Shown in pieces: positions 4,516 through 28,269 of a stretch of 50,240 nucleotides of DNA. A program made the position numbers and the translations under genes. Source of the stretch: Muribaculaceae bacterium (GTDB lineage: Bacteria; Bacteroidota; Bacteroidia; Bacteroidales; Muribaculaceae); assembly GCA_024400935.1 (NCBI GenBank), contig JAKSLZ010000011.1, positions 1 to 50,240 on the forward strand. The letters are read 5' to 3'. Each line of letters begins with the position of its first letter. The stretch's first letter is position 1. The notes beneath the pieces were generated by a model. It saw only the letters and a program-made list of their open reading frames with translations. It had not been told where the DNA came from and did not search any database.

Positions 4516-4965
4516 TTAATCATTCAAAAAAAATCTCTCATCAATTTTTATTCCTTGAGACTCAATTAGCCTTCTATATTCATCAGCAAAAGTCTCAGCA
4601 CGATGATGCTCCTTCTGATTGCGAATATAATTCTTGACGGTATCCAAATCACCAAAAGCATAGGTAAAAGACGCATACCCTTCTCCCCAACCTCTAAACA
4701 TAGGAAACTTTGGATTCTGCCTTAACCATTTACTCGTTTCACTTTTCAGTTTGTTCATAAATGAAGACAAAGCAACAGTTGGCGGAATATCAACAAGCAT
4801 GTGAATATGGTCGAGCATTCCCCCTATTCTATAAAGTTTACACTTGCAATTGTTACAAAAGCCTAAAATATAAGCATACAAATCACGCTCACATTCCTCA
4901 AAGATTGTACACTGGCTGTGTTTTGTCCTAAAAACAATATGATATGTATTTCTGTAATAACTCAT
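4516..4965 (-). CDS. REP-associated tyrosine transposase (IS200/IS605 Y1 family)
   Basis: 149 residues from the internal ATG at 4965. A longer in-frame start at 5049 would extend into the REP palindromes and is unlikely. The HUH motif is LDHIHM (H53, H55) and the single catalytic tyrosine sits in VKNYIRNQ (Y113). These are the hallmarks of Y1 single-strand DNA transposases, which cut and rejoin hairpin DNA. No TnpB or accessory gene is present. Flanking inverted REP-like palindromes and an array on one side fit a RAYT ('REPtron') rather than a complete insertion sequence. The frame is intact with both catalytic motifs, so it may be active. Base composition is clearly more AT-rich than in the neighbouring genes. 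Confidence 0.88.
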   Translation of the reverse strand: MSYYRNTYHIVFRTKHSQCTIFEECERDLYAYILGFCNNCKCKLYRIGGMLDHIHMLVDIPPTVALSSFMNKLKSETSKWLRQNPKFPMFRGWGEGYASFTYAFGDLDTVKNYIRNQKEHHRAETFADEYRRLIESQGIKIDERFFLND

Positions 4966-5013
4966 ATTTTCTACAAGGTAGCGGCCTACAGCCGCAACTT
5001 TTTTACACTCCTT

Positions 5014-5124
5014 TCCCCCACCGGCAGTCGCTATGCTCCTTTCCCCCACCGGGAGTCGCTATGCTCCTTTCGGTGGGGGTTATGTGCAGAACTTCGTTCT
5101 GCGTTTCGGCCTACGGCCTTCTTT
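5014..5124 (+). repeat. REP-like palindromic element, right flank of transposase (with internal duplication)
   Basis: The segment beginning CCCCCACCGG and running through AGTCGCTATGCTCC occurs twice in tandem (5014 and 5043). It is followed by CGGTGGGGG, then a GCAGAAC..GTTCTGC hairpin and GGCCTACGGCC. It is the inverted counterpart of the left-flank element. Confidence 0.8.
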
Positions 5125-8436: not shown

Positions 8437-8618
8437 CAATGATTTTTTGTATTTTATTAGGCGTAGCCGCATTTTCGTCATAGTGGATAACAGTTGTGGT
8501 TAAGCCACAATGTGGGTCATGGCATGGGTGCAGGCCGAAGCTCGCTTCGAGACGGCATCTCATACCATGGCGCACACTCAGGATCCAGCTGAGCGTTATC
8601 TACTATGATATTTTTCTT
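8437..8618 (+). repeat. Diverged copy of the ~185-nt structured repeat
   Basis: It aligns along its whole length with the copies at 25430, 26179 and 26640. It starts CAATGATTTT, has TTGTGG/CCACAA, GCAGGCCGAAGC/GCTTCGAGAC, CTCAG/CTGAG, and ends ATATTTTTCT. Relative to the others, the central stem TTAAGC/GCTTAA has become CGAAGC/GCTTCG, so pairing is kept through two compensatory changes. Confidence 0.75.
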
Positions 8619-8624
8619 TAAATT

Positions 8625-8779
8625 GGGGCTGTGTCAAAATGCATTTCTTCGAGCTAACAATGCTTTTGCCCTTACAGGGCGAGGCGACTTTATATCCTTT
8701 TACCCAGGGCGTTGCCCTGGGCTGATAGCGGCATTGCACTTACAGCGCGCTGTTGATTCTCGCATTTTGACACGGCCCC
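8625..8779. mobile_element. 155-bp MITE-like element with 18-bp terminal inverted repeats
   Basis: GGGGCTGTGTCAAAATGC (8625-8642) and its inverted partner GCATTTTGACACGGCCCC (8762-8779) bound a non-coding core. The core contains a CCCAGGGCGTTGCCCTGGG palindrome. The ends resemble insertion-sequence termini, but no transposase is present. Confidence 0.65.
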
Positions 8780-23481: not shown

Positions 23482-25005
23482 TTATTTCTTGCGAGGCTCG
23501 CGGGGCACAGGCTTAGCGTCGGCTCTGCCGCTGAACACTACCTGCAAGATACCCTGTGAGTAGCCCATTGAGAGGACATTGCCGCCTTCGCTCACAAACA
23601 TGTTGTTGTCTTCCATAACAAAACCACAGCGGCCCATAGCACCCATCATAGTGTTAACAATGGTTTCTTCGGTGCCAAATCCGCAGTGCCTCAGGTCAAC
23701 TGACAGGTTCACCATCTTGACCTTGGCGTTATAATTGAACGATGCAGCCGAGTCGGTTGCCGCCTTGGTGGCGATGGGACCATCAAATGTATAAGAGCAT
23801 CTGATGGGGCCCTGCTGCATTGATATACCGTCCTGTCCCACTCCGGCCTCGGCATCGTCGCCCAGAGCTCCGTTCATGGTCATGAGGTCAGTGCCTATGG
23901 TCACGCCTGCCACGTGGTCGTCGCCTATCATGCTAAGCATCGACATTGCCACCAGGTCGGTGTCGGTGAATCCGCGGTTGGCAAGTGTCACACCGTCGGT
24001 GCCGTGCACGTGCACAAACTTCACGGTGCCCACTGGTGCACCCTTATCGTCGATAATGCTGTACGCACTGTCGTTGCCCACGATGTAACGGTCGGCACGC
24101 AGGTCAGAGATTCGGTCAAACTTAGCAGGAACAAGCACCTTGTTGTCAGGATCAACCACACCCATCTTGTTATCCTTGTTCAGGACAAAGAAGTTGCCGG
24201 TGACGCTGCGGGCAAAGCTCTTGTAACCAGCCTTCTCCACCACCTTGTAGTTTTCGTTGGGGCTGGGCACTTCCTCGCCTTTCTTGTTGAGGCACACGAT
24301 AGAGTCGCCCTTCATGAGAGGCAGCACACCGTCAATGAAGCTGGGCTGAATCATGCCGAACTCCTTAGCATCAACGTTGAACTGCACCTCGCCCTTCATG
24401 TTGATGACACTGTAGCTTGCAGTAGAATCGTTGTCCAGGTCGGGCTCAACGACGATAGCCAGATCCTCGTTGACAAAGGGATTGGCTACATTGTAGCGAG
24501 CCGAGATCACTGTGTCACCCTTAGTGTTGATGTAGCCCCACATGCCCATATCGTTCTGATACATGGCCATGCCGCGACTGAACATAGAACACTGGTTCAC
24601 CTCCTTGGGGAGTTCTTTCACCACCTCACAGTTCTTGTCGATCACACACAAAGCCTCACCGCGCTTGCTAGCCACGGCCAGACCATCCTCGCTGAAGCCA
24701 GTCACGCTGCCATAGACCTCCTTGTTAACAGGAATCTTGGGATTATTAACGTTGTAGTAGTTAAACGTACCGTCGTCGTTCATCACATAGTACATGTCGT
24801 TAACCACCGCTGAGGGTGTCTGCGTGTAAGCGTCCTTCACCACCAGCTTGCCGGTGTTTACGTCCAGGATGCTCCACTTGTTGCTACCCTGCAGTTGCAC
24901 AGGCATATAATTAATCTGGGCAGTATCATTTTTACTGCCACAAGCCACCATTGTGGCCACGATGCACAGCACTGCCGCTGCGCGCATTATCATTGTTTTT
25001 TTCAT
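23482..25005 (-). CDS. WG-repeat lipoprotein
   Basis: 507 residues. The lipobox is MVACG after a short signal peptide, indicating an envelope lipoprotein. The N-terminal two-thirds carries WG-type beta repeats: KWSILDVNTGKLVVKDAY, GMWGYINTKGDTVISARYN, NKMGVVDPDNKVLVPAKFD and YSIIDDKGAPVG, spaced by roughly 40-60 residues. The C-terminal 170 residues are different and rich in Gly, Met and Asp; I do not recognise them. WG repeats usually mediate protein contacts. First gene of the operon with GH125, SGNH hydrolase and DUF3298-like protein, driven by the promoter at 25034-25065. Confidence 0.85.
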   Translation of the reverse strand: MKKTMIMRAAAVLCIVATMVACGSKNDTAQINYMPVQLQGSNKWSILDVNTGKLVVKDAYTQTPSAVVNDMYYVMNDDGTFNYYNVNNPKIPVNKEVYGSVTGFSEDGLAVASKRGEALCVIDKNCEVVKELPKEVNQCSMFSRGMAMYQNDMGMWGYINTKGDTVISARYNVANPFVNEDLAIVVEPDLDNDSTASYSVINMKGEVQFNVDAKEFGMIQPSFIDGVLPLMKGDSIVCLNKKGEEVPSPNENYKVVEKAGYKSFARSVTGNFFVLNKDNKMGVVDPDNKVLVPAKFDRISDLRADRYIVGNDSAYSIIDDKGAPVGTVKFVHVHGTDGVTLANRGFTDTDLVAMSMLSMIGDDHVAGVTIGTDLMTMNGALGDDAEAGVGQDGISMQQGPIRCSYTFDGPIATKAATDSAASFNYNAKVKMVNLSVDLRHCGFGTEETIVNTMMGAMGRCGFVMEDNNMFVSEGGNVLSMGYSQGILQVVFSGRADAKPVPREPRKK

Positions 25006-25033
25006 ATTCCGTTAGTTATAGACAATATTCATG

Positions 25034-25065
25034 CAAAGTTACACATAATTTCCCATCCCTACAAA
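25034..25065 (-). promoter_or_regulatory. Promoter for the WG/GH125/SGNH/DUF3298 operon
   Basis: On the minus strand TAACTTTG (25034-25041) is preceded by TTTG (25062-25065) with a 20-nt spacer. Confidence 0.75.
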
Positions 25066-25172
25066 AATTTGACGATTTCTTATACAGCGCTTTGCTTTCT
25101 TGCTCATCATATTTTAAACATCTCGCTTTTTGTCCTGCATAATTGCGTAGAAATAATTTTAAAAAGAAAAAT

Positions 25173-25310
25173 ATCACAACCGTTTATACACCCACTCCTT
25201 GGCTGTGCATCACAGGAAGAAAGGCCATCTTCAAAAGTAAACTTTCTCAATGTCCCTTCTTCCCATGATACACATGTCGCCGTTGGCTCCATGTAATAAA
25301 CGGTTGTGAT
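25173..25310. mobile_element. 138-bp element with 14-bp terminal inverted repeats
   Basis: ATCACAACCGTTTA (25173-25186) and TAAACGGTTGTGAT (25297-25310) are perfect inverted repeats around a non-coding core. A related sequence, ATAATTTTAAAAAG then GAAAATATCACAAC, also precedes 26485. Confidence 0.5.
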
Positions 25311-25352
25311 AGAAAATGCGCCGAAGCTAATAAAATACACAAAATCATTGCT
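25302..25352 (-). repeat. Inverted partial copy of the structured repeat's 5' end
   Basis: Read on the minus strand it begins GCAATGATTTTGTGTATTTT and continues through CGGCGCATTTTCTATCAC. This matches the first 50 nt of the repeat at 25430, placed head to head with it. Confidence 0.65.
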
Positions 25353-25429
25353 CTCCGGAAAAAGAAACAAATAATGCGATAAAAATCTGAATATAAGCCC
25401 CCCAATACTACCAAAGCGATAGGTCGACA

Positions 25430-25613
25430 ACGATGATTTTGTGTATTTTCTAAGGTCGGAGGCCGCATTTTTCATCACGGGCAATCTTTTTTGTGGGGGA
25501 GCCACAATGTGGGACGCGGCATGAGGGGCAGGATTAAGCCTGCTTAAAGACTGCTCCTCTTGCCGCGGAACACACTCAGAACTCTTCTGAGCAAGATTGC
25601 ACGTGACATTTTT
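25430..25613 (+). repeat. Structured repeat, copy 1
   Basis: About 185 nt with several hairpins: TTGTGG/CCACAA; a long stem GCGGCA..GAGG.GCAG..TTAAGC/GCTTAA..CTGC.CCTC..TGCCGC; CTCAGAA/TTCTGAG; then a tail ending ATTTTTCT. It is nearly identical to the copies at 26179 and 26640. It and a further 65 bp, up to a -7 box, lie upstream of the GxxExxY gene. Confidence 0.88.
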
Positions 25614-25670
25614 CTAATACTAACACATTACTTTTTCCTGAAAAAAGCAATACTCCTAGCGATTTTTATG

Positions 25671-25678
25671 TAAATTTG
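25671..25678 (+). promoter_or_regulatory. -7 box for the GxxExxY gene
   Basis: TAAATTTG matches the consensus, 25 nt before the ATG. The same box within homologous sequence precedes the esterase gene at 26914. Confidence 0.55.
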
Positions 25679-25703
25679 TGCGTGAAACATAAAAGAAATC
25701 ACA

Positions 25704-26141
25704 ATGGATTCAAAAGGCAAAATATCCGACAAATTACATTCTCAACTTAAAGACTATGTGTATCCTGTAATCGCCTGTATGCATGAGGTGCATAATGAAT
25801 TAAAAAATGGCCTGCCGGAATATGTGTACCAAGAAGCACTCGCAATCAGTTTGAGAAAACACGGTTTTAACCCATTAAAAGAGTATCAGCACCATATAGA
25901 GTACATGGGCGAGAAATTAAAAAGTCACATCAGGATGGATATTGTCTTAGAAATGCCAAGAGGGAATGTGATAATTGAATGTAAGTCTATTGCTAGTCTT
26001 GGTGATGCTGAACGTTATCAAACATTCGGCTATTTGCGTGGTACCAAATTCCCAATTGCAATATTAGTTAATTTTGGCACATTTGGAAAAGCACAGATTG
26101 AAAGATACTATTTTCACGAAGGCGATATCACAGCATTTTAA
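25704..26141 (+). CDS. GxxExxY family protein (PDDEXK-like)
   Basis: 145 residues. The signature appears as NGLPEYVYQEALAISLRKHG (GxxExxY, around residues 37-55). It is followed by HIRMDIVLEMPRGNVIIECKSI, which gives the D...ECK core of a PD-(D/E)xK nuclease-like fold. The family is widespread in Bacteroidetes and environmental bacteria. Its function is not established, and nuclease activity is only a fold-based suggestion. The gene is AT-rich compared with its neighbours and sits in the middle of a repeat cluster, with a structured repeat on both sides. This suggests acquired DNA. It seems to be monocistronic. Confidence 0.85.
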   Translation: MDSKGKISDKLHSQLKDYVYPVIACMHEVHNELKNGLPEYVYQEALAISLRKHGFNPLKEYQHHIEYMGEKLKSHIRMDIVLEMPRGNVIIECKSIASLGDAERYQTFGYLRGTKFPIAILVNFGTFGKAQIERYYFHEGDITAF

Positions 26142-26178
26142 GGGCTCCCATATTACCCGCCATAGCTATAGATATACA

Positions 26179-26362
26179 ACAATGATTTTGTGTATTTTCT
26201 AAGGCTCGGGTCGCATTTTTCATCACGGGTAATCTTTGTTGTGGGGAACCACAATGTGGGACGCGGCAAGAGGTGCAGGATTAAGCTTGCTTAAAGACTG
26301 CCCCTCTTGCCACGGAACACACTCAGAACTCTTCTGAGCAAGATTGCACGTGACATTTTTCT
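26179..26362 (+). repeat. Structured repeat, copy 2
   Basis: The same hairpin series as copies 1 and 3. It lies 37 bp after the GxxExxY stop and lacks the promoter-containing tail found after the other two. The stretch from 26363 to 26484 is otherwise featureless AT-rich DNA. Confidence 0.85.
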
Positions 26363-26484
26363 CTAAACCTAAAACTCCCATGCCACTAATCCAACGTCTT
26401 CTCTAAATGAAGTAACACCAGGATTTTATATCCCACAGTTCTCGTGTGAATTCGACAAAAATAATTTTAAAAAGGAAAATATCA

Positions 26485-26619
26485 CAACTATACACCAATA
26501 GAGTTTTTGCGAACTCCCCGCGCGGATCTCACGGATTTCACGGATTAATCATATGATTATTTATTTTCACAGATTAAAATCTGATCTGCGCGAGATAATC
26601 CCCACTGGTGTATAGTCAC
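26485..26619. mobile_element. 135-bp TIR element
   Basis: CAACTATACACCAATAG at the left and the inverted GGTGTATAGTCAC at the right enclose CTCCCCGCGCGGATCTCACG and a matching CTGCGCGAGATAATCCCC. It is a short relative of the elements at 10850, 39793 and 49131. Confidence 0.7.
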
Positions 26620-26639
26620 AAAATATCCAATGGGCATCT

Positions 26640-26822
26640 GCAATGATTTTGTGTATTTTCTAAGGCTCGGGCCGCATTTTTCATCACGGGCAATCTTTGT
26701 TGTGGGGAACCACAATGTGGGACGTGACATGAGGGGCAGGATTAAGCTTGCTTAAAGACTGCCCCTCTTGCCACGGAACACACTCAGAACTCTTCTGAGC
26801 AAGATTGCACGTGACATTTTTC
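26640..26822 (+). repeat. Structured repeat, copy 3
   Basis: Nearly identical to copies 1 and 2. The central stem GAGGGGCAG/CTGCCCCTC with TTAAGC/GCTTAA inside is perfect here. It lies 91 bp upstream of the esterase start. Confidence 0.88.
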
Positions 26823-26878
26823 TTATACTAACACATTACTTTTTCCCCAAAAAAACAACACTCCTTGCATTTTTTATG

Positions 26879-26886
26879 TAAATTTG
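26879..26886 (+). promoter_or_regulatory. -7 box for the esterase gene
   Basis: TAAATTTG, 27 nt before the ATG. It is embedded in about 65 bp that match the region upstream of the GxxExxY gene. Confidence 0.55.
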
Positions 26887-26913
26887 TAAACCAAACAAAA
26901 AACGACTTTATTT

Positions 26914-28269
26914 ATGAAAACAATAGCGACTTTTATTGCACTGATGCTGATGTCTTGCGCACAGGCATGGGCCGGGCATGTGATGGTGGACGGATCGCTC
27001 ACCCAAAACGAGATTGACGACATTTATCCCGGGACCGTGCACACTTATCAAGTGTATGTGCCAGAGCAGTATGACGGCAGCAAGCCGGCTTGCCTATATG
27101 TAGGGCTCGACGGTGTGCTGTGCGATGCTCCGGCGGTGATGGACAGCCTCATCGCAGCAGGCAAGATGCCGGTGACCATAGGCGTGTTCCTGCAGCCCGG
27201 AGTCATCAAGGGCAAGGACGGCAAGGTGTTGCGCTACAACCGCAGCAACGAGTTTGACATGACCGACGGCACGTTTGCATCATTCCTGGAGAAGGACCTA
27301 CTGCCCAAAGTCGAAACAGAAAAGACCCCCGACGGCCGCAAGATAAAGCTGTCAAAGGACGCTAATGACCGCATGATATTCGGCCTGTCGAGCGGTGGCA
27401 TTTGCGCCTTCAATGCCGCATGGCACAGGCCCGACATGTTCTCTCGCGTGTTCAGTGGCGTGGGCACATTCGTATCGATGCGCGGCGGACACGATCTGCA
27501 GGCCATCGTGCGCAAGCATGAGCCTCTGCCCCTGCGCATCTATCTGCAGGACGGCGACCAGGACGTGTGGAACGCCCTGTTCGGCCACTGGTATGAGGGC
27601 AACAAGATGCTGGCCAGCGCGCTCGATTTTGCCGGATACAAGGCCGGCTACGACTGGAGCCACTGCAAGCACGGTGTGAGCCAAGCCGCCAAGATTTTTT
27701 CGCGCGTGATGGAATGGATGTGGCGCGACTACCCTGCCCGCATCGAGCCCGGCCGCACACAGAACGACCTGCTCGCCCCGCTGCTGCCCGAGGACAACAC
27801 ATCGTGGGTCGAAACCACATGCCCCCGCAAGGTGCGTCGCCCCGGAACCACACAATGCCACACCACAATACTTGACACTTATCCCGACGGTTCATTCCAT
27901 GTGTCACGCGAGGAAAACAGCAACTGGCTTCTTCAGACCATCACCAGCCCAAAACCAGGCTCGCAACAGCGCTTCTACTGGCTGCACAGCTACGACAACT
28001 CGTTGTTGCAAGTGCCTTGCGCCGAGTTTGACTCACAGGGCAACCTCTATGTGGTGACAAACGCCGGCATACAGATTTGCGACCAGAACGGCCGTGTGCG
28101 TGGTATCCTCGCATTACCACACGAACTTGATATCCAGGCTGTAAACGGTTTTGTAATTCGCAGCGGCAGCATCACCCTCGAGACCCCCAGCGGGCGTGCC
28201 TGGGTGCGCAAGCTCAACATCGAGCCCGCCACACAAGGCGTCACCCCCAAGTCACAAGGCCAGGGATAA
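26914..28269 (+). CDS. Secreted esterase-like alpha/beta hydrolase with C-terminal propeller-like domain
   Basis: 451 residues with a signal peptide (MKTIATFIALMLMSCAQAWAG). Residues about 25-270 resemble the enterochelin-esterase/CE1 fold. The nucleophile elbow is FGLSSGG (S159), an acid is likely in LQDGDQDVWN, and a histidine is likely in WSHCKHG. The C-terminal 150 residues contain beta-strand pairs such as SWVETTCP, QRFYWLHSYD and NLYVVTNAGIQICDQNGRVR, similar to a partial SMP-30/gluconolactonase propeller. This arrangement is seen in Bacteroidetes carbohydrate esterases, but the substrate is unknown. It converges with the RNase Z gene, 5 bp from its stop. Confidence 0.82.
   Translation: MKTIATFIALMLMSCAQAWAGHVMVDGSLTQNEIDDIYPGTVHTYQVYVPEQYDGSKPACLYVGLDGVLCDAPAVMDSLIAAGKMPVTIGVFLQPGVIKGKDGKVLRYNRSNEFDMTDGTFASFLEKDLLPKVETEKTPDGRKIKLSKDANDRMIFGLSSGGICAFNAAWHRPDMFSRVFSGVGTFVSMRGGHDLQAIVRKHEPLPLRIYLQDGDQDVWNALFGHWYEGNKMLASALDFAGYKAGYDWSHCKHGVSQAAKIFSRVMEWMWRDYPARIEPGRTQNDLLAPLLPEDNTSWVETTCPRKVRRPGTTQCHTTILDTYPDGSFHVSREENSNWLLQTITSPKPGSQQRFYWLHSYDNSLLQVPCAEFDSQGNLYVVTNAGIQICDQNGRVRGILALPHELDIQAVNGFVIRSGSITLETPSGRAWVRKLNIEPATQGVTPKSQGQG

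Follow-up and report, generated by a model that had tools for sequence, protein, structure and literature searches.

The 50,240-nt stretch of DNA analysed here, referred to as the window, is contig 13 (C13) of a 2.84-Mb MAG (G000) that is 77% complete; judging by the relatives of its esterase, for which Candidatus Sodaliphilus fimicaballi gives the best match at 75% identity, the source genome probably belongs in or near Candidatus Sodaliphilus (Muribaculaceae). A non-coding repeat of ~190 bp, termed A-type, occurs in the window in three plus-strand copies at 25431–25618 (copy 1), 26180–26365 (copy 2) and 26641–26826 (copy 3). The initial annotation had described three near-identical copies, and both their coordinates and their similarity were confirmed, with blastn identities to copy 3 of 94% for copy 1 and 97% for copy 2; all three are supported by blastn, fold and covariance model. 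A further plus-strand copy at 8437–8620, which was not counted among the reported three, is recognised by blastn and the covariance model, belongs to the main lineage, and shows 72% identity with copy 3 along the part that matches in blastn. On the minus strand, a B-type relative at 25150–25351 (cmsearch core 25162–25317, 59.5 bits; leader start 25351) lies head to head with copy 1; as its fold also indicates, it has the leader, architecture and tail of the A type and different stem sequences. Head-to-head A and B elements are found both in the window (25150–25618) and on another contig (C140:7316–7745, L058), where the leaders are ~82 nt and ~60 nt apart, respectively, and the spacers show no obvious similarity.

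Between copies 1 and 2 lies a plus-strand GxxExxY-type PD-(D/E)XK gene at 25704–26141 (PF13366, E 4.9e-26), which belongs to the inserted block described below and has no demonstrated role in the element; a link between the two was dropped because three other listed GxxExxY genes (on C2, C106 and C67) are on contigs without A copies. The GxxExxY family is present in 89 of 101 genus genomes, and by eye its genes often lie within a long inverted repeat closing around the ORF (eleven listed flanks from L157 to L180, Sodaliphilus relatives), an arrangement with some likeness to the intervening sequences that form stem-loops in 23S rRNA. The interval 26459–26640, which lies between copies 2 and 3, holds a hairpin repeat of the cacggatt..cacagatt type; among the matches listed, 11 similar stretches occur elsewhere in the source genome and 12 shorter ones in Ca. 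S. limicaballi (G004). Copies 1 and 3 are also ~90% alike downstream (25619–25694 and 26827–26902), the shared stretch being about 60–75 nt, and this is a duplicated element–promoter segment, in which a TAnnTTTG-like motif precedes the GxxExxY gene after copy 1 and the esterase after copy 3. Elsewhere in the window, a minus-strand IS200/IS605-family Y1 transposase gene at 4516–5049 (motifs DHIH and YIRNQKEHH; NF033573, 79 bits against a cut-off of 55) is enclosed by mirrored hairpin arrays, with an inverted repeat of 79 nt at 91% across the gene; the arrays are not those of the A element, and the gene serves as an example of the candidate mobiliser class. Adjoining the fourth A copy, a palindromic module at 8655–8750 has matches on either side of the tnpA gene of contig C69 (98 nt at 84% and 92 nt at 79%).

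All the ordered hairpins named in the initial annotation are present in the copies, and the compensating pair quoted there (G-C against G-U between copies) is correct. In a dinucleotide-shuffle test, the folds of copies 1, 2 and 3 gave z values of -7.4, -6.1 and -6.9, respectively, with 0 of 200 shuffles as good. A closing stem overlooked in that annotation, TCACG.GCAATCTT/AAGATTGC.CGTGA, unites the three hairpins into a predicted four-way junction; in the fold of copy 1 its 5' side lies at 25475–25488 and its 3' side at 25593–25606 (both plus strand), the latter followed by CATTTTTCT. The predicted order is closing stem P1 (12–17 bp across units), short hairpin P2, long hairpin P3, short hairpin P4 and a T-rich tail, where the two short hairpins face each other and P3 has a 2×3 internal loop beneath a 5-bp tip; upstream of P1, a conserved leader of ~38 nt contains a mini hairpin, which reads GGCGTAGCC in main-lineage copies, and GCATTTTC. 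The earlier wording "subterminal hairpins" understates the structure, since most of the unit is predicted to form one branched palindrome; its extreme ends carry no inverted repeats. When 18 copies are aligned, P2 (TTGTGG..CCACAA) differs from the reverse complement of P4 (CTCAG..CTGAG).

In the source genome, blastn with copy 3 gave 22 matches, two of them leader-only. A covariance model built from 18 copies, R1, found 26 A-type units, namely 24 full ones, a 5' chimera (C68:11682) and a contig-edge fragment (C104); cmsearch added one contig-edge fragment on C110. At the chimera (L076:11650–11830, C68), an A element is joined near GGTTA to a tnpA arm of the C119 type, apparently at a recombination junction. 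The same genome holds a second B-type element on C140 (58 bits), a diverged member of the same architecture on C95 (44.6 bits), and, at C102:77–280 (27.6 bits), an A leader and tail around a different interior, which looks like a nested palindrome. All 20 matches to the leader pattern (up to 3 mismatches) are element copies, and the tail pattern occurs at 19 places, including a lone tail on C63 and the contig edge on C110. The copies are dispersed and intergenic; two units of the source genome overlap a spurious-looking ORF of 90–120 aa.

Outside the source genome the family is sparse in the searches made. Across 101 congener genomes, R1 found matches in three, the source genome included, and none in the other 98 at E ≤ 0.001; diverged members occur in Ca. 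S. limicaballi (two copies, 67.6 and 58.6 bits) and in G042 (one, 32.4 bits). These counts in relatives are lower bounds, because the coarse first search step missed the second Ca. S. limicaballi copy and the C140 B copy, both found by cmsearch. A cmsearch of 605 kb and of 1.34 Mb of relatives' DNA found nothing at E ≤ 1, and 20 further windows of the complete congener G043, whose sampled windows total 800 kb of 3.34 Mb, gave a single chance-level match (17 bits, E 0.84). In collections that may omit the window's own genome, there were 0 matches for the leader pattern in public genome contigs, for a 22-mer from the core in viral contigs, and for one copy in distant blastn against phages and plasmids. 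The stems of the A, B, Ca. S. limicaballi and G042 members have little common sequence and fold alike; no second covariance model was built, because the MAFFT joint alignment of all lineages was structurally unsound.

In the 18-copy alignment, 96.3% of the cells pair, and 17 pairs are doubly changed against a shuffled mean of 9.5 (sd 1.9), with 0 of 500 shuffles as high; doubly changed cells number 54 against 12.5 in shuffles, and a control with slid partners gave 2–4 doubly changed pairs. Covariation beyond chance and the lack of an Rfam match at the element, on which the initial annotation had let its own reading depend, were both found and favour a real structured element. The doubly changed pairs nevertheless represent few independent events, since many stem from one split, that of the three C13 copies and C140 from the rest. 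When the main lineage is compared with the C13 consensus, there are 13 double compensations, and 3 pairs are broken against 17.2 expected. Among 20 main-lineage copies, the 36 private stem substitutions comprise 11 G-T, 9 A-C, 12 other mismatches and 4 Watson–Crick pairs, which is near the neutral mix (G-T 0.25, A-C 0.25, other 0.45, Watson–Crick 0.05), so that pair breakage within the main lineage is about what chance predicts. Private substitutions per column are fewer in stems (0.37) than in loops (0.65); strict neutrality is disfavoured for this reason, and weak selection on resident copies is possible. The strong covariation between lineages, together with the near-chance private breakage, suggests that the fold is selected during propagation and not in each resident copy: it appears to be under selection when new copies are made, and resident copies would decay. 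On the named strand, the common wobble columns are 5 G-T and 0 A-C, while rare ones number 14 and 11, respectively; this bias hints at one folded strand, RNA or DNA.

Strong covariation would also be expected if the repeats were multi-copy small-RNA genes, transcribed from the leader into a four-way-junction RNA that ends at the T-rich tail. The conservation of the leader, the position of the T-rich tail beyond the closing stem, and the five common G-T columns without a common A-C on one strand, a pattern that an RNA would give as well, all agree with such genes. The initial annotation did not recognise the class, and Rfam likewise provided no confident family match at the element copies: there were 0 matches in the window at the gathering score and none at the element in five other loci with copies, where the sole match was a cobalamin riboswitch elsewhere in L064 (L064:1283–1481, Ca. 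S. limicaballi; RF00174, 98 bits), which is unrelated to the element. At E ≤ 10, the interval 25000–27000 gave 11 matches, the best with E 0.22 and every one below the gathering score; three of the 11 fall antisense to the copies and belong to a single miRNA family. TAnnTTTG is the promoter motif of Bacteroidota, and it is missing from all 27 leader windows, where exact matches only were scored. Small-RNA genes are further opposed by the match of private stem changes to the neutral mix, by the lineage-specific copy number (26 in the source genome, with two found in Ca. S. limicaballi and one in G042, the latter as lower bounds), and by the antisense strand, which also fits the covariance model with up to 73 bits, as expected of a palindrome. 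A small-RNA gene family, one of three options in the initial annotation, is thus weakened by the missing motif and the near-neutral private substitutions; it is less likely than mobile DNA, and we regard it as unlikely. It could also be imagined that a retron-like or SINE-like transcript was copied by reverse transcriptase, for conservation is better in fold than in sequence, and one strand is favoured by the common wobbles; the absence of the promoter motif, of target duplication and of any Rfam match at the element makes such RNA-mediated spread very improbable.

The boundaries of the unit were analysed with 27 units and their flanks, for which 269 pairs align across the element. On the left, 206 of the 269 alignments stop 27–61 nt left of the core, while 41 run further and 22 stop inside (63 outside the range); on the right, 170 stop at -3 to +13 nt of the right edge of the core, while 54 run further and 45 stop earlier (99 outside). 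No target-site duplication was found over 26 units, recurrent matches being confined to conserved T-runs. Just before main-lineage leaders, GGATC or GATT is common, which is not the case before C13, C140 or B copies. The C-rich contig strand carries the named strand in 23 of 27 A-type units, which lie on 18 contigs (p 3e-4; 14 of 16 contigs of one sign); by fourfold sites the figure is only 16 of 27, and the sampled windows of G043 show no clear replichore skew, and for these two reasons no conclusion on replication is drawn from the bias.

Comparison with relatives bears on the origin of the copies. In the sister species Ca. S. fimicaballi, the WG-repeat protein gene and the esterase gene are divergent and their start codons lie 156 nt apart, compared with 1908 nt in the window, and R1 gave no match on this pair; in Ca. 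S. limicaballi, the orthologues are adjacent, with the esterase inverted and neither element nor GxxExxY gene between them. The orientation of the esterase relative to the WG-repeat gene in the latter (L215, C374) is reversed compared with both the window and Ca. S. fimicaballi. Because of the 156-nt gap and the element-free pair, the window block (the B element, three A copies, the GxxExxY gene and another hairpin repeat) is read as one or several insertions, unless it was lost in both relatives. As to an orthologous regulatory element at the esterase, none was seen within 420 nt upstream in 15 relatives, and R1 had no match there.

The second option of the initial annotation, a 5' regulatory RNA, finds no support, as the units stand in all orientations relative to neighbouring genes. 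The same variety of orientations speaks against a cis-acting element retained because it influences adjacent genes, such as an insulator, a terminator or a supercoil sink beside promoters, as do the orthologous gene pairs of relatives that lack the element. TAnnTTTG lies 29–120 nt downstream of copies 1 and 3, the window B copy and the C140 A copy, which would suit such an element; within 150 nt downstream, however, it occurs in just 4 of 27 units, all of the C13/C140 group, where a background of 0.066 per unit predicts ~1.8. A terminator scan of 25000–27000, covering simple hairpins with loops of 3–8 only, gave 0 against a shuffled mean of 1.4. A cis-acting function is accordingly held to be quite unlikely.

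Palindromic modules may instead have been copied by recombination, template switching or hairpin repair without a dedicated transposase. Mosaic neighbourhoods, the fusion of a C119-type tnpA arm to the element at C68:11682, the downstream promoter region of ~60–75 nt common to copies 1 and 3, and the lack of target duplication are all compatible with such passive spread. Most alignments nevertheless stop at much the same left and right positions (206 and 170 of 269, respectively), and the long-term conservation of the fold across lineages needs selection during propagation; passive spread is therefore judged improbable.

Transposases that might act on such a fold are numerous. Y1_Tnp was found in 20 of 20 genomes searched, with the most matches, 12, in the source genome. 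Two short Y1 proteins of this genome scored 79 and 76 bits against the IS200 transposase model (cut-off 55); against that of REP-associated transposase (RAYT; cut-off 80), the same two scored 23 and 27 bits. For the flank test, 11 tnpA loci were chosen by the analyst (7 of 12 matches in the source genome, 2 of 5 in Ca. S. limicaballi and 2 of 8 in G042), five source-genome matches with ORFs of 270–331 aa being left out. The Y...Q..HH motif is present in all 11 short genes read, and in 10 of the 11 loci mirrored inverted repeats of 46–122 nt extend across the gene (E ≤ 1e-11); the eleventh has an inverted repeat of 19 nt with E 0.004. A wider test covered 12 loci from 12 genomes, two of which had been counted before; the ORF was recovered in 10, with an inverted repeat at E < 1e-5 in 9 of these 10 (7 of the nine within 100 nt on both sides) and at E < 1e-10 in 5; among control ORFs, 1 of 45 had an inverted repeat at E < 1e-10, namely the C97 tnpA gene. 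When folded without the gene, the arms of six loci were predicted to form mainly one giant hairpin.

Some A copies lie close to modules of these tnpA arrays. Counted as best matches among the 27 units, the 3' arm of the C119 locus (C119_D) is upstream of five, a module of the C69 type (C69_D) is downstream of one (the module at 8655–8750 of the window), and modules of the C97_D or G004_C51_D type are downstream of eight and upstream of one. Matches to C119_U were not relied on, being partly circular, as the upstream flank of the C119 tnpA gene contains the leader of a nearby A copy. In comparisons of the leaders with tnpA flanks, the best p was 0.005 among 44 comparisons per query with 200 shuffles each, so that the similarity is only suggestive. 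Neither a tnpA gene bearing the leader (≤3 mismatches) or tail of the A element nor an autonomous IS200/IS605 element sharing the A ends was found in the 77% complete MAG; since no tnpA gene has the A leader, the link between tnpA and the element is one of company and design and not of shared ends, and the proximity of tnpA modules to A copies may come from shared intergenic insertion sites.

The third option of the initial annotation, an IS200/IS605-like mobile element moved as single-strand DNA, is the best supported of the three, in view of the dispersed intergenic copies, consistent ends, absence of target duplication, the empty site in the sister species and the tnpA hairpin modules nearby. 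We propose, with a probability of about one half, that the family is non-autonomous, REPIN-like palindromic mobile DNA, probably moved in trans as folded single-stranded DNA by a subclass 1.2 Y1 transposase. Copy number, unit ends, lineage-specific presence and the closeness of some copies to tnpA-linked modules are the observations behind this proposal, to which the predicted four-way junction adds the support of covariation. One strand of the unit, or a cruciform, would fold into the four-way junction; the folded single strand would then be cut and joined in trans by an IS200-like Y1 (HuH) transposase, probably one of the many Y---Q--HH "subclass 1.2" enzymes of the source genome; and resident copies would decay, with the fold remaining selected in copies still moving.

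Several known systems resemble this arrangement in part. REPINs have been reported to carry compensatory changes within palindromes, and REPINs/BIMEs with their RAYTs (TnpA_REP), as far as the accounts in PMC3116915 and PMC6006769 go, share with the present case dispersed intergenic palindromes, compensatory changes, single-strand hairpins and Y1 transposases with flanking hairpin arrays. A REPIN, however, consists of two inverted copies of one REP, whereas P2 and P4 of the A element differ; the A element is ~190 bp with a predicted four-way junction; and the scores of the two Y1 proteins lie above the IS200 cut-off and below that of RAYT. Dispersed intergenic hairpins with compensatory change are thus found here, and an inverted REP pair and a repeat-flanked cognate RAYT are not. 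Subclass 1.2 TnpA_Y1 is characterised by the signature Y---Q--HH and is reported mostly from Cyanobacteria and Bacteroidetes; the table of PMC6006769 gives "no" REP for it, and the corresponding text describes it as generally without typical IS200 terminal structures. The signature is common to all 11 tnpA genes read here, whereas large mirrored palindromes were seen in 10 of the 11 loci of a subclass described without REP. TIRYTs, in which a Y1 gene is enclosed by inverted repeats, are similar by description, and 20 of the 26 described in that source belong to subclass 2.1 (PMC6006769).

RU-2, pneumococcal RUP and BOX, a Porphyromonas MITE with minisatellite, and RU-1 are MITE-like repeats (PMC2759123, PMC3049150, PMC4596501). 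Such repeats are likewise short, intergenic and non-autonomous, and differ from the A element, which is predicted to be branched and has neither inverted repeats at its very ends nor target duplication. RU-1 is also called ERIC. The combination of terminal inverted repeats and target duplication typical of DDE-type MITEs is absent, and the absence of target-site duplication over 26 units is as expected of an IS200/IS605 derivative. Within the limited scope of the literature searched, there was no description of the A element or its four-way-junction form.

On covariation alone, this repeat would have been classed with non-coding RNAs, whereas the substitution pattern within the lineage points to mobile DNA, which calls for caution with similar repeats. 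As a tentative and broader possibility, one that we would not yet favour, subclass 1.2 Y1 transposases may form a palindromic-element ecosystem in Bacteroidales, in which genes lie in the loops of giant mirrored hairpins alongside transposase-free four-way-junction elements, and in which the fold, and not the sequence, would be the conserved substrate. If this is true, it would provide partner DNA for a transposase subclass described as having none, would extend the known substrates of HuH transposases from simple hairpins to a branched four-way junction, and would account for some of the structured intergenic repeats that stand unannotated in gut Bacteroidales.
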